Below are positions 29,357 to 58,802 of a DNA stretch of 64,000 nucleotides, piece by piece; positions within the stretch are counted from its first letter, which is position 1, and every line of letters begins with the position of its first letter. A program made the translations under genes and the position numbers. This stretch comes from Arenicola marina. Lineage: Eukaryota > Annelida > Polychaeta > Arenicolidae. The notes below the pieces were generated by a model. The model did not search any database and had not been told where the DNA came from. It saw only the letters and a list, made by a program, of their open reading frames with translations. The stretch is from NCBI GenBank assembly GCA_964019135.1, contig OZ025263.1:27217639-27281638 (forward strand), read 5' to 3'.

Positions 29357-32300
29357 TCACAAGGGCCGGTGGACAATCTTCTGCACCTGGGGAGTTCCCT
29401 TGGCGGGCAGCTTGGTGCCCTCGAGGATGGCCTTGATGGCCTTGCTGCCGCCCTCGGTGGTGGCCAGCGCCACCCCGGTCAGCATGTCGACCTCCTTCGT
29501 CAGTTTGCGACCCTCGGTCAGCGTCTTCAGGTCGTCGCTGTCCAGCGTCTCGTAGTGCATCAGGCCGTCCACGATGGCGCTCAGCTCCCTCTGGTGGCCC
29601 TTCAGCAAGGCGCGCGCCCGCTCGTACGACTCCTAGCGGCGGGGAGACAAATCAAGAATGATATTCAGTTAGGATTGTGATGTCGGTTGAGGCGTCAAAC
29701 ACTATGGCCTACACGTACATGGTTTAGCCGACTACGGGGCTTAGTCGACTGAAATCGCCCATCATGAACATGGCAACTTTAGCCGACTGAGCGCCGTAGT
29801 CGGCTAAACTGCGTTCGTGAAATCCGCCACTGGTGTTTCTGGTTGCATGTAGTCCTGCTCTGTGGTGGGGATGACCGGGCAAGGGTGGAAGATGGAAGGT
29901 TTTGGGGCGGAGCTGGGATAAAGTATCCATGGAGTAATCAATATTGGTGAGAAAAGGTGTGCAAAACAGGCGGATTAATATGATGTCATTTTGCTTAAGT
30001 TTAAAGTTGGTCATAAGGGTATGGATGATTGGTTGTATCTTCAGGAACATACTCACGGACTTACCGAGAGCAGCCGCTTGATCTCGCTGTCGACCACCTC
30101 CAGCGTGGCGGCGCTGTATTCGTTCATGTCCCCGCCCCGCATGAAGTCCTTGTCGTGGATAATGCGGTATCCGGCCTTCTCAGACATCCCGAACCGCTTG
30201 ACCAGGGCCTCGGCGATGCCAGTGGCCTTCTCGAAGTCACTGCCGGCTCCTGGTAGTAAATATATTTTATATAGGTCAGGCCCATAGTACAAATAGGGTT
30301 ACGTAAAAACTCCGGTGAAAACCGCATATATACAATTTAGGTTTCGCCGTTTGCGTGGTGCAACCTTTCTGCCTTGTATAAATAAATCGATAAATTTAGT
30401 ATGTCTTGCTTATTGTGGGACTTCATCAACTTAGCGAACATTTATTTTGGCCGTCACCTTGAGCTGGTTGACCACCCCCGCAACCCCCTAAAGATCCTCC
30501 CCTCGCCAGCTCACTGGCAGCCACTTTGAGCGTTGTCGATCGGTAGTTTACATCTAGATATGATTGCCTTAACTTTTTATATATATGTGTGGATGTGTGG
30601 ACATATGTGATATATATACGCACGTCCCAAAAATCTGTGTTGTAAATCCATCGTCTTACGCTGGCGGAAAGACGCCAACCAAGCATTAACAGTATTTATA
30701 AAGCCAACATACTGTTTTTCCGACCAGGTAAATAGTGATGAATAATGTATTGGCTCCAGTCCAAGACGGATTGCTCTCAGAGCGAGTCGATACTCCCATA
30801 TCCAGGGGTCCGGAATGGGGGGTCCTGTGTCCAGTGTCGATTTGTCAAAATTCTCAGTGTCGAATGTCGATTTTTCACGACTTTCAGTGTGACTAAGTTC
30901 AGTGTGACTAAGTTCAGTGTGACTAAGTTCAGCGTGTTTTCGTTTTCTAAAACGCCACTATCTGGTTCGATTTCACTTTTTCACATTTTCAGTGTCGGAA
31001 TTTAGCGGTCAATGTCGAATTTTTAAATTTGCCTGTGTCACGTGTCGCTATTTACCCCTTCCAGACCCCTATATCCTGTCCGAGTCATTACGACAGGTTC
31101 GTACCGGGTGGGATTCCACTCCCATCACAATCTCATGGCTCTATCATACTTCTGATCGCATAGACCAACGGGCACTTTCAGCCTACATAACCACCCACAC
31201 CACCCGGCAAGTGACGTGATATACAGACGGCAATCAAACGCCCTCAGTCATGATCTCGGCACTCGCTAGGGTCCAAAAAAGACCATTCAAGGAACGCGCT
31301 CATTTATAAATGAATGATTATAACAACTCATGAAAACGACGTCACAGTCACTTAGCAACGAGTTGTAACAATGGGCCATCCATTATGACGTTACCTGTGG
31401 TAACCTTGTCGACGCCATAGACGATCTCCTCGGCCACGCGGCCGCCCATGGCAACGTCCATCTCAGCCAGCAGCTGCGCCCGCGTCATGTTAAACTGCTC
31501 CTTCTCAGGCACGAAGGACGTCTGCAGCAAAGGCACATTGACACACTCAACAGGGGGAGATGAATCCAGGATTCATTCATGCCTTTGATATCATATTCTA
31601 TGCGACATGTGTTAAGTAAAAGATCCTCGTCCTTCCGGACATAAATGTATTACTTATTTCAGCATTGAAACAACATACCGTATTTGAGCCAGATTCAAAA
31701 ATGTTAATTTCAGTTTATATTTTTATTTTTTTGTCTATGCCGTTTGGTCGTGGTGGCGGGATATATTTGAATTTTGAAACTAACTAAAATACGGTATATT
31801 GTTTCAATATTCCGTTTGGTAGCGGCTACCAAACGGCAAGGACAGCTTCCGGCGAAAGAAGTCACGTGTTGGCGAGTACTCACGTGTCCCAGACTCATGC
31901 CACGTGGCGCGATGGTGACCTTGTGGGGCGAGGTGGCGTCCTTGGTGTGGTAGGCGACCAGCGCGTGGCCGGCCTCGTGGCACGCCGTGATCTTGTTCGT
32001 GTCCTCGTCCGGGATGCGAGACTTCTTCACGGGACCTGAGGGGGTGACGGGGCAAAGGATTAGCAAAGAAAGTATCACATTGTTTACGGCCGTTCAAAAA
32101 TACATCGCTGGCATTGGTAGATTTGCAATCGCAATGGATAATTAAAATTATTAACAGCTCACCTGTCGTGGTAAATTGAATTTTGTAATTCGGGAATTTT
32201 AGATCGTACGTTTGTCTAATTGACGGGGCAAATGATTGTGGTGAAGAGAGGGATGGATTGGTTGGTTCGTTGCATATTCAGGACGCTTTAACCAATTTTG

Positions 32301-57700: not shown

Positions 57701-58802
57701 CTACCAAACAAAATAAAACACACCATAACATACGCCCAATTAAATAAGCCTAGACGTTGATATCATTACATGCAAAACACGAAATTTACCTGACGTATGT
57801 TTGCTTTATGTTGATTTCGGTGTTTAGTTTGGGGCTGTAGCTGGCATGCCTGTGGGGACTTCCTGGCCACGTGCTCCATGGACAACACCTCCAAGATCTG
57901 GGACCTCAACAGGTACGCGCCAAGAACCTCTTAAGAGTTAACGCTATTCAGGCAGTTGTTTCCCGCCCAAATGATGCAATAATCCTGGACTAGCCACGAG
58001 TCTCTTAACGGTTAATATATATGGTTAAGCTTCCTGAATATACAACCAACCTGAATATACAATCATCTAAACAACTATTTATATCTTCCAGCTTGAGGTG
58101 CCGCTACACGTTGCGCGGTCATACAGACTCTGTAAACAGCATCCAGTTCCTCCCCTTCTCCAACACCCTGCTGACTTGTTCAGCGGACAAGACGCTGTCT
58201 CTATGGGATGGACGCACCGTAAGTTATCACTGCACACTCCGCCGCACGGTAGCGCTGTCTCTTTGGGATGGACGCACCGTAAGTTATCACTGCACACTCC
58301 GCCGCACGGTGGCGCTGTCTCTATGGGATGGACGCACCGTAAGGTATCACCGCACACTCCGCCGCACGGTGGCGCTTCACGCGCTGTCTCTATGGGATGG
58401 ACGCACCGTAAGTTATCACCGCACCCTCCGCCGCACGGTGGCGCTCCACACGCTGTCTCTATGGGATGGACGCACCGTAAGTTATCACCGCACACTCCGC
58501 CGCACGGTGGCGCTCCACGTATGTATAACAGCGCTATGGACATTATTTCTTGAAGTATACATTTATTGTAATAATTGGCAATGACGTCTCTGTTGCCATG
58601 CAACTCACTCACATGACCTTGGTCAGTGCGTTATGATATTTCTCGAGCACTCGAGCGCTTATGATTTTTAGCGATATGGTCCCAGCACGTTCCATCCCTA
58701 AACGGATGCATTATGAGTGTGTTTCTGTCGTTTCAGGGTCTCTGCGCTCAGACGTTCTACGGTCACATGCACTCTGTAAACCACGCCACGTTCAACTATA
58801 AG
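45789..58802 (+). CDS. SPAG16: SPAG16/PF20, axonemal central-pair WD40 protein (14 exons, C-terminus not found)
   Basis: Exons: 45789-45828, 50759-50836, 51676-51743, 52298-52422, 52759-52896, 53441-53548, 55204-55400, 56015-56157, 56335-56468, 57013-57156, 57359-57459, 57828-57912, 58092-58218, 58737-58802. Phases join throughout (about 518 codons). Landmarks match human SPAG16: SEYQYEEVSVDED; a LisH-like LDCFQTEWYELQQKG; coiled-coil KERDFHRMHHKR and QEKNKLITDI; LKTHYSSYEP; then WD blades (GDTTVKIWD, DNTSKIWDLN, GHTDSVNSIQF, ADKTLSLWDGRT, YGHMHSVN). The family protein bridges the C1-C2 central microtubules of motile cilia. About 110 residues of terminal WD repeats are expected after 58802 and were not found, so they probably lie beyond 64000. 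Exon 1 is called from phase, Kozak context and FFLER alignment, and is the least certain. Confidence 0.94.
47100..47186. repeat. ~36-bp tandem repeat in SPAG16 intron 1
   Basis: Three units share CCCAGTATGCACATGGCCAG and CCAATTTATCC. The MITE at 47196 is inserted at the right edge, and a further partial unit (GCACATGGCCAGCCAAT) resumes after it. Confidence 0.75.
47196..47449. mobile_element. MULE-like MITE, single copy related to the foldback element
   Basis: Ends TTGGTGCAAGTACCCCCAGG and CACTTGCGCCAA match the foldback at 44750. The interior (GATGTCAGAAGATAGAACAAGG) is one arm's sequence. Flanks GCATATAGC and GCACATGGC agree at 7 of 9 bases, consistent with an aged 9-bp duplication. Confidence 0.78.
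48170..50440 (-). mobile_element. decayed LINE in SPAG16 intron 1
   Basis: Minus-strand pieces in order: a basic coiled region (50402-49947, ends HPHPQLT), an RT start (APGPGGVCYRVYKNCP near 49900-49850), the catalytic FMDDMTITTKT near 49450, then a thumb and C-terminal part (KSGLPGKYKAW, LPRVLWQLMVHEVP at 49241-49050; PRSFSSVGLYS at 49037). Several stops and frame changes separate these pieces, so it is inactive. The motifs are those of a non-LTR RT family seen in fish and invertebrates. I do not assign a clade. Confidence 0.75.
50869..51274. mobile_element. MITE with TTAA target site in SPAG16 intron 2
   Basis: Left AGTTGCATGTGGAGCTCTTT and right complement (AAAGAACTCGACATGCAACT) form a ~35-bp inverted repeat. 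TTAA stands at both ends (50869-50872, 51271-51274), as for piggyBac or Kolobok elements. It begins only 32 bp after the exon 2 donor. No transposase inside. Confidence 0.8.
53042..53245 (-). mobile_element. 5'-truncated LINE tail in SPAG16 intron 5
   Basis: Minus-strand 3' end with a TATC-type microsatellite tail (53065-53075), then CTTTATTGT ... GGCC ... TCAGGCCCA as in the 3' UTR of the big LINE at 365-450, and a short piece of C-terminal coding-like sequence. It seems to be a distinct but related family member. Confidence 0.6.
53358..53410. repeat. 16-bp unit, three copies, before SPAG16 exon 6
   Basis: ATGCGAAACTAAACTG repeats three times and ends about 32 bp before the exon 6 acceptor. 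Confidence 0.85.
53700..55203 (+). repeat. 1.5-kb minisatellite of acceptor-like units before SPAG16 exon 7
   Basis: The ~38-bp unit is a pyrimidine tract plus acceptor: CCCTCTCCCCTCTCACCCCC, TGACTCAG|GCTGACCCCA. The real exon 7 acceptor CCCCCTCAG|GCTGA is the last unit. From about 54540 a higher-order unit of 113 bp (three subunits; one copy is 76 bp) also contains the first 32-33 bases of exon 7 (CTGAAGACCCACTACTCCTC). Such exon-edge copies start at 54563, 54676, 54789, 54902, 54978 and 55091, before the real one at 55204. Each copy runs into an in-frame TGA directly after the copied codons. Confidence 0.95.
55780..56036 (+). repeat. 77-bp three-copy repeat spanning the SPAG16 exon 8 acceptor
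   Basis: Units carry GTGATTCACTCTCCACGTTA, then ACCCGCCACAG|GGGTCGC and GCAGCGCGGCAGTG. AG dinucleotides end at 55859, 55936 and 56014; the last is the real acceptor. The exon's first ~30 bases are thus present three times. Confidence 0.92.
56469..57012 (+). other. GC-AG intron (SPAG16 intron 9)
   Basis: The donor reads CTG|GCAAGT and the acceptor CCGCAG|CGTGG. Only this junction restores the Cys codon (TG+C) in AVSCVALHP, which matches the conserved VSCVSMQP of human SPAG16. No GT donor nearby gives the right phase. Confidence 0.85.
58191..58520 (+). repeat. five-copy duplication of the SPAG16 exon 13 end and donor
   Basis: Each unit has CTGTCTCTATGGGATGGACG, CACC|GTAAGTTATCAC and CTCCGCCGCACGGT. 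Donors lie at 58219, 58279, 58339 (GTAAGG), 58408 and 58477; spacings of 60, 60, 69 and 69 are all multiples of three. The frame is open through the whole block, so every donor would join exon 14 in frame and add 20-23 residues (repeating LSLWDGRT) per step to a WD blade. Confidence 0.95.

Follow-up and report, generated by a model that had tools for sequence, protein, structure and literature searches.

Local repeats that include splice sites and exon edges at junctions of the adjacent YME1L and SPAG16 genes of Arenicola marina

Why should local repeats in two adjacent genes fall so often on splice junctions, copying the splice site together with the edge of the exon? The question was raised by the original prediction, which named five such junctions in a window of 64,000 nucleotides of Arenicola marina (the window being the whole stretch of DNA that was analysed) and explained them either by a mutational process that starts at exon edges or by tolerance of the repeats. 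All five, at exons 9 and 10 of YME1L and exons 7, 8 and 13 of SPAG16, are real and could be located exactly. They are probably the outcome of ordinary local duplication, spanning junctions in the manner of the "mirages" of lancelets, and tolerated as the exon body stays on one end copy.

In the window, 28 exons and 53 splice junctions were modelled across YME1L, SPAG16 and an MRPL32-like gene. The two genes that carry the repeats are the following:

29357..40772, minus strand: YME1L, the gene of the i-AAA protease, with a model of exons 4 to 16 and a stop codon ending at 29357
45789..58802, plus strand: SPAG16 gene, exons 2 to 14 modelled

YME1L was identified by its match to yeast Yme1 (6az0, E 2.8e-136, with the exact exon model as query) and SPAG16 by its match to 9ijj_Q (E 5.5e-86 and 2.4e-62). 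The YME1L model covers nothing upstream of 40772 and its last exon ends one base inside the stop codon. The probable start codon of SPAG16 is at 45789; the model has no exon 1 donor, and further exons were not detected or fall outside the window.

Three arrays of SPAG16 cross an exon boundary:

53738..55237, plus strand: exon 7 acceptor array of 39 subunits spaced by 34 to 42 bp
55813..56041, plus strand: exon 8 acceptor array of three 78-bp units, with the true exon starting at 56015
58192..58519, plus strand: exon 13 donor array, five units with spacings of 60, 60, 69 and 69

The exon 7 array repeats the acceptor core CAG|GCTGA in 36 subunits and a one-base variant of it in the other 3. It is layered: the last seven units are long, spaced by 113 bp (once 76), and each of them, the six extra ones and the true one (exon start at 55204), includes 34 exon bases. 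These long units are nearly identical, and the outer subunits differ at many sites. The "six extra copies" announced for this exon are thus true of the long units, the array as a whole holding 39 acceptor cores. The two extra acceptors expected at exon 8 lie before 55859 and 55937; 27 exon bases are repeated, the true copy having a gap of 2 bases. At exon 13, where the true donor follows 58218, the four extra donors follow 58278, 58338, 58407 and 58476, as had been proposed, and 27 exon bases are duplicated.

The repeats of YME1L are of another build:

35741..35836, minus strand: exon 9 acceptor repeat, 42-bp block in two copies, 54-bp spacing
34753..34923, minus strand: exon 10 acceptor repeat, 71-bp block in two copies, 100-bp spacing
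34509..34635, minus strand: exon 10 donor repeat, 30-bp block in two copies, 97-bp spacing
33604..33848, minus strand: intron 11 array, unit of about 33 bp, which ends at the AG of the exon 12 acceptor (exon start at 33603)

The true start of exon 9 is at 35771 and its copy at 35825, with 31 duplicated exon bases which are part of the Walker A coding stretch. For the exon 10 acceptor, the true start is at 34760 and the copy at 34860, with 8 exon bases. The exon 10 donor repeat, absent from the original prediction, has its true site after 34628 and its copy at 34531; 27 of 30 bases match and 8 are exonic. The acceptors and exon bases of exons 9 and 10 are therefore copied as predicted, but as two-copy direct repeats with spacers rather than tandem arrays: the copies are not contiguous because the blocks are shorter than the spacing (42/54, 71/100 and 30/97 bp). 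The exon 12 acceptor is indeed the end unit of the 33-bp array, which stops at the intronic AG and has no exon base inside; its seven other units, one of which has no AG, score from -2.9 to 4.2, compared to 7.5 for the true acceptor.

The duplication scan was position-blind, and the local repeats were then compared with the modelled junctions. Repeats with exon bases cover six of them: the YME1L exon 9 acceptor, the exon 10 acceptor and donor, and the SPAG16 exon 7, 8 and 13 sites. At the scan threshold, no hits were obtained in two Markov-simulated copies of the window. The AG or GT is kept in the extra copies listed at all six junctions; the search patterns used for the copies of exons 7, 8 and 13 already included it. 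In the exon 7 array, the even spacing of 34 to 42 bp leaves no room for a subunit lacking the AG.

The conserved proteins indicate which copy serves the product. The SPAG16 joins 6/7 and 13/14 align without gaps to SPAG16 and PF20, and the YME1L joins 8/9, 9/10 and 10/11 align without gaps to Yme1. These alignments of predicted joins show that it is the exon-proximal copy which would yield the conserved protein at YME1L exons 9 and 10 and SPAG16 exons 7 and 13, and no new intron is needed to explain the joins at these four exons. At SPAG16 exon 8, the protein around the join is unconserved and gives no indication of the copy used. The idea that the exon 13 array is entirely coding in the main product was rejected, since SPAG16 and PF20 align across the 13/14 join without insertion.

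Patterns of this type have been described in lancelets, where tandem repeats spanning an exon–intron boundary, exon bases included, were called "mirages"; many but not all of their copies keep the splice signals. According to excerpts of the publications, which report them from cephalochordates, they occur in Adh3 (Canestro et al. 2002, as given by citing papers), in the globins BflGb6 and BflGb9 (PMC3087553), and in troponin C and PGBD5 (PMC3902484). Globin 6 haplotypes differ in the number of units, and so do PGBD5 assemblies (excerpts of PMC3087553 and PMC3902484). SPAG16 exons 7, 8 and 13 likewise have a boundary-spanning tandem repeat with exon bases (34, 27 and 27). The repeats of YME1L exons 9 and 10 have spacers and the array of exon 12 has no exon base, which makes the YME1L cases mirage-like rather than mirages in the strict sense. 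In contrast with amphioxus, the genes here are YME1L and SPAG16, and six junctions are concerned in two adjacent genes (seven with exon 12), including an array whose 39 acceptor cores are organised with a higher-order unit, and three spaced two-copy repeats, all known from the DNA sequence of one haplotype. The pattern thus appears to be already described in lancelets, and what looks new is its presence in other genes.

It could be argued that the extra copies are used as alternative splice sites which give length variants, at least for the donor of SPAG16 exon 13 and the acceptor of YME1L exon 9. At exon 13, all four extensions (+60, +120, +189 and +258) are in frame and open, and three of the four extra donors have the same 9-base site as the true one; at YME1L exon 9, use of the extra acceptor (+54) is also in frame and introduces no stop. 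The true exon 7 acceptor is equalled by 6 of the 38 extra ones, and both extra sites of exon 10 score slightly higher than the true ones (4.7 against 3.6 for the acceptor, 11.1 against 10.0 for the donor), with a matrix built from the true junctions of the window and hence biased towards true sites. Such equal sites at exons 7 and 13 and higher scores at exon 10 would leave room for some use of extra copies. However, the extra exon 9 acceptor is far weaker than the true one (6.8 compared to 13.7), and stops appear when an extra site is used at SPAG16 exon 7 (38/38), exon 8 (2/2) and at the YME1L exon 10 acceptor (1/1) and donor (1/1). The added residues would be located within a conserved WD40 stretch or duplicate a portion of a Walker A motif. 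The spacing is divisible by three at three of the six junctions, near the one in three expected by chance, so that frame preservation was rejected as a selected feature. Lastly, undisturbed splicing is reported in excerpts of the lancelet papers for Adh, globins (by RT-PCR) and troponin C (PMC3087553, PMC3902484). Altogether, regular use of the extra copies seems improbable.

Are junctions hit more often than expected? In an event test, where repeats were placed in introns under a one-terminal-unit rule, 6 of the 18 repeats that lie in modelled introns take in a junction together with exon bases, while 1.61 are expected (P 0.0029). The 18 repeats derive from the unfiltered scan, which gave 23 clusters. 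Eight of these were excluded as lying outside modelled introns (6915, 9796, 12481, 13599, 20855, 28689, 28789 and 41733); among the other 15, the cluster at 61245 consists of two arrays, which makes 16, and two arrays seen by Tandem Repeats Finder alone (37556 and 30827) raise the number to 18. A complexity filter (1154 of 3025 hits kept) lost a real intronic array, 53362-53409, and the final set was made without it; between the smaller filtered sets (n = 12, minus the incomplete last SPAG16 intron, and n = 15) and n = 18, the excess became weaker, with P rising from 0.0016 to 0.0029. For SPAG16 intron 1, whose start (45857) is a guess, only the acceptor entered the junction count. Restricting the test to the 16 scan repeats gives P 0.0019, and counting the two exon 10 repeats once gives 5/17, P 0.0095.

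This excess is above uniform placement and counts against ordinary duplication. It would be explained if a mutational process favoured exon edges, duplications starting there at a higher rate than at other places; examples of a cause would be slippage in the pyrimidine-rich tracts of acceptors, or breakage of the DNA at boundaries by structures linked to transcription or splicing. The exon 7 array, about 1.5 kb built throughout of acceptor-core subunits, also seems to have been seeded at the boundary. But the P value becomes 0.049 if junction repeats are given a two-fold retention weight, 0.17 with a three-fold and 0.33 with a four-fold weight, and the contiguous arrays alone give 3/15, P 0.096. 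Per base, there is no junction excess in the window, 6 of 53 junctions being covered compared to 192 of 1500 interior points. Donors, which have no pyrimidine tract, make up two of the six affected sites. All these P values are optimistic because the window was chosen for the junction-repeat pattern. Most of the repeats (12/18) lack a junction with exon bases, which shows that the region is repeat-rich in general. The event-level excess is therefore suggestive only, and a bias of mutation towards exon edges is unlikely. Also unlikely is a broader proposal, in which short duplications of this lineage begin preferentially at exon edges and continually copy splice sites into the adjacent introns, the spliceosome picks the true site among dozens of near-identical copies by where it stands with respect to the exon body, and the copied in-frame exon 13 donors are a standing source of new protein segments.

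Some copies could also have been made by collapsed or expanded alleles in the assembly. The exon 7 long units are nearly identical, and copy numbers differ between assemblies in a published lancelet case (excerpt of PMC3902484), although re-sequencing supported the PGBD5 repeats according to the authors of that paper, as excerpted. The many differences among the copies at exons 8, 9 and 10 and among the outer exon 7 subunits make it unlikely that the duplications are artefacts, and an assembly error is a very improbable explanation. The copy number of the near-identical arrays is uncertain, since it rests on a single assembly and one haplotype.

Ordinary duplication with tolerance, the preferred reading, would thus proceed as follows. 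Short segments (about 30 to 113 bp) in which a splice site and as many as 34 exon bases happened to lie would be duplicated, by replication slippage or end-joining, and the SPAG16 arrays may have been enlarged by further slippage or unequal exchange; a layered structure, such as that of the 39 cores with their 113-bp higher order, is typical of array turnover. The repeats would persist because only the intron gains DNA by the duplication, the complete exon remaining on the 3'-most copy of acceptor repeats or the 5'-most copy of donor repeats. Splicing presumably uses the copy attached to the exon, and the other copies would be ignored by the spliceosome. The exact coincidence of the repeats with junctions is observed. 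The YME1L spacers, which simple tandem duplication does not leave, count against ordinary duplication. As to the two explanations first offered, tolerance fits the protein joins and the lancelet splicing data, whereas a process acting at exon edges is not established, given the weighted P values and the per-base comparison.

Two other systems bear comparison. In human segmental duplications, internal tandem repeats at exon–intron boundaries are relevant to splicing; that study, as excerpted (PMC2812944), compared recent paralogues with transcript support and found 27 cases termed intron modifications, while the present case is one locus known from DNA alone. In the RdRp gene of potato, an intron was gained by tandem duplication (excerpt of PMC4974935). 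There, as here, the duplicated segment crosses an intron–exon boundary and copies splice signals; unlike in potato, the joins that can be checked here give no sign of a new intron, and both copies lie at one end of one intron.

The lancelet globin authors proposed such repeats as a source of introns (excerpt of PMC3087553). If the junction excess held genome-wide, it would imply that duplication is linked by mutation to exon edges, and that new introns as well as exon extensions have a source here; if it failed, the pattern would be what a minisatellite-rich genome leaves where selection permits. In either case, 38 extra acceptor cores in one intron and five near-identical donors at one exon are natural experiments on splice-site choice: the sequence of the site hardly separates the copies, so something positional should.

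As regards the window as a whole, no Rfam match at the gathering score and no tRNA call were obtained. The CpG ratio of 0.79 and the GC content of 0.45 suggest no more than a non-vertebrate origin. A SINE is present within the window.

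Repeats that copy a splice junction together with exon bases are a real and recurrent feature of two adjacent genes, YME1L (an i-AAA protease gene) and SPAG16. Comparing the window with itself without gaps, at lags from 12 to 450 bases and without regard to gene structure, gave 3025 hits, compared to 0 in two Markov-simulated windows. Without a complexity filter, the hits form 23 clusters, 15 of which are inside modelled introns. Six clusters contain a junction with exon bases.

Exon bases copied with each junction
YME1L exon 9 acceptor: 31
YME1L exon 10 acceptor: 8
YME1L exon 10 donor: 8
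SPAG16 exon 7 acceptor: 34
SPAG16 exon 8 acceptor: 27
SPAG16 exon 13 donor: 27

This position-blind scan recovers the duplicated junctions that the original prediction had described at YME1L exons 9 and 10 and SPAG16 exons 7, 8 and 13, and adds the YME1L exon 10 donor. Tandem Repeats Finder detects arrays at the SPAG16 exon 7, 8 and 13 junctions and at the YME1L exon 12 acceptor. The latter array, also predicted, does terminate at the acceptor AG, but copies no exon base.

The window has a GC content of 0.45 and a CpG ratio of 0.79, which is not vertebrate-like; its animal genes with introns mark it as eukaryotic. YME1L, on the minus strand, matches yeast Yme1 (6az0, E 2.8e-136) and its product contains Peptidase_M41 and AAA domains; SPAG16, on the plus strand, matches 9ijj_Q (E 5.5e-86 and 2.4e-62). 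There is a third gene:

~5519-6802: MRPL32-like gene, Ribosomal_L32p match, E 9.5e-9

The models comprise 28 exons over the three genes (53 junctions), with one open frame per spliced gene. Exon numbering follows the original prediction, and the models cover YME1L from exon 4 onwards and SPAG16 up to exon 14, apart from the point where its exon 1 ends. SPAG16 intron 9 (56469-57012) is an apparent GC-AG intron with donor GCAAGT, required by the join VSCVALHP.

The SPAG16 exon 7 array takes up most of its 1.66-kb intron (about 1.47 kb) and 34 bases of the exon. It is composed of 39 subunits at 34 to 42 bp spacing, of which 36 have the acceptor core CAG|GCTGA and three a one-base variant. Seven long units carry the 34 exon bases and six of them are extra, which is the number of extra copies claimed. 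The start of exon 7 codes for residues conserved in SPAG16 and PF20; thus the core probably derives from the exon itself, and the array appears to have been seeded at the exon boundary. At the exon 13 donor, the units of the array are spaced by 60, 60, 69 and 69; over its exon-derived part, each of the four extra copies shares 93 to 100% identity with the true one. The exon 8 array consists of three 78-bp units. The copies at YME1L exons 9 and 10, described as tandem repeats, are instead single direct repeats: the matching block is shorter than the spacing, so other DNA lies between the copies.

The SPAG16 protein joins 6/7 and 13/14 align without gaps to solved SPAG16 and PF20, and the YME1L joins 8/9, 9/10 and 10/11 to Yme1. 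The conserved product is therefore predicted to use the copy joined to the exon body; for exon 8 the basis is the open frame only. Splice sites were scored with a simple matrix derived from the junctions of the window itself. Of the 38 extra acceptors at exon 7, six tie with the true site and 32 fall below it. Lower scores are also obtained for the extra acceptors at exon 8 (2/2) and exon 9, and for the other seven units of the exon 12 array. At exon 13, three of the four extra donors match the true donor exactly, and the extra acceptor and extra donor of YME1L exon 10 score slightly above the true sites with this window-built matrix. Use of an extra site would introduce a stop at exon 7 (38/38), exon 8 (2/2), exon 12 (7/7) and both the acceptor and the donor of exon 10, and in no case at exon 13 (0/4) or exon 9 (0/1).

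Two explanations had been proposed: a lineage that tolerates the duplications since one copy is used, or a mutational process that starts at exon edges. Tolerance is favoured, because the conserved joins use the exon-attached copy. A mutational preference for exon edges is a less likely candidate, suggested by an excess of events that is absent per base. Eighteen repeats (16 from the self-comparison and 2 more from Tandem Repeats Finder) were each placed uniformly in 27 introns, exon overlap being allowed up to one unit. Six of the 18 include a junction, against 1.61 expected (P 0.0029; this and the following P values are lower than warranted because the window was selected for this pattern). 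Counting the exon 10 repeats as one gives 5/17 (P 0.0095), and contiguous arrays only 3/15 (P 0.096). When junction placement is weighted, to allow for a copy that selection holds in place decaying more slowly, P becomes 0.049 (two-fold), 0.17 (three-fold) and 0.33 (four-fold). Per base, repeated DNA is present at 6/53 junctions and at 192/1500 random intron-interior points, so there is no per-base excess; the latter figure counts in the extended intronic stretches that belong to the junction arrays.

This kind of feature is already named ("mirages"), and YME1L and SPAG16 are not among the genes in the portions of the mirage literature examined. It is reported that intron/exon boundaries of lancelet globins 6 and 9 are duplicated minisatellite-fashion, that haplotypes differ and that regular splicing is undisturbed; the authors take the name from an Adh3 report, cite further loci and put forward an intron-gain model (PMC3087553). 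Other papers describe lancelet PGBD5 splice sites overlain by imperfect repeats, with troponin C cited as another case (PMC3902484), boundary repeats in human segmental duplications (PMC2812944), a boundary-crossing duplication that produced a new intron in potato (PMC4974935) and intronic tandem arrays of dual-use splice sites in human polyubiquitin (PMC10809524). No genome-wide junction-enrichment test for lancelets was found in the literature searched, mostly without subscription journals.

The window contains other repeats. A ~255-bp element looks, by eye, like a tRNA-derived SINE; ARAGORN calls no tRNA. Its eight copies or fragments are 76-91% identical to the query copy.

Copies or fragments of the ~255-bp element
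36796-37050
34935-35190
32262-32512
5254-5462
63429-63638
32845-33009
38616-38832
16359-16503

A LINE is also present, whose 901-aa frame has endonuclease and reverse transcriptase domains and whose 339-aa frame has a weak L1 ORF1-type match, under the curated cut-off:

1254-4976, minus strand: LINE, two long open frames (901 aa and 339 aa)

A 30-bp minisatellite (CGACATGGACC...) is common to 12440-12920 and 61315-62089, about 49 kb apart; the adjoining parts match in inverted orientation, which suggests a mobile element carrying a minisatellite. Outside the modelled genes, a 14-bp unit repeated ~394 times makes up an array of 5.2 kb (20855-26049). In the MRPL32-like intron, a 76-bp repeat (6392-6545) stops 24 bases short of the acceptor, and a perfect 16-bp array of three copies (53362-53409) comes to within about 30 bases of the acceptor of SPAG16 exon 6; both acceptors are outside the repeats.
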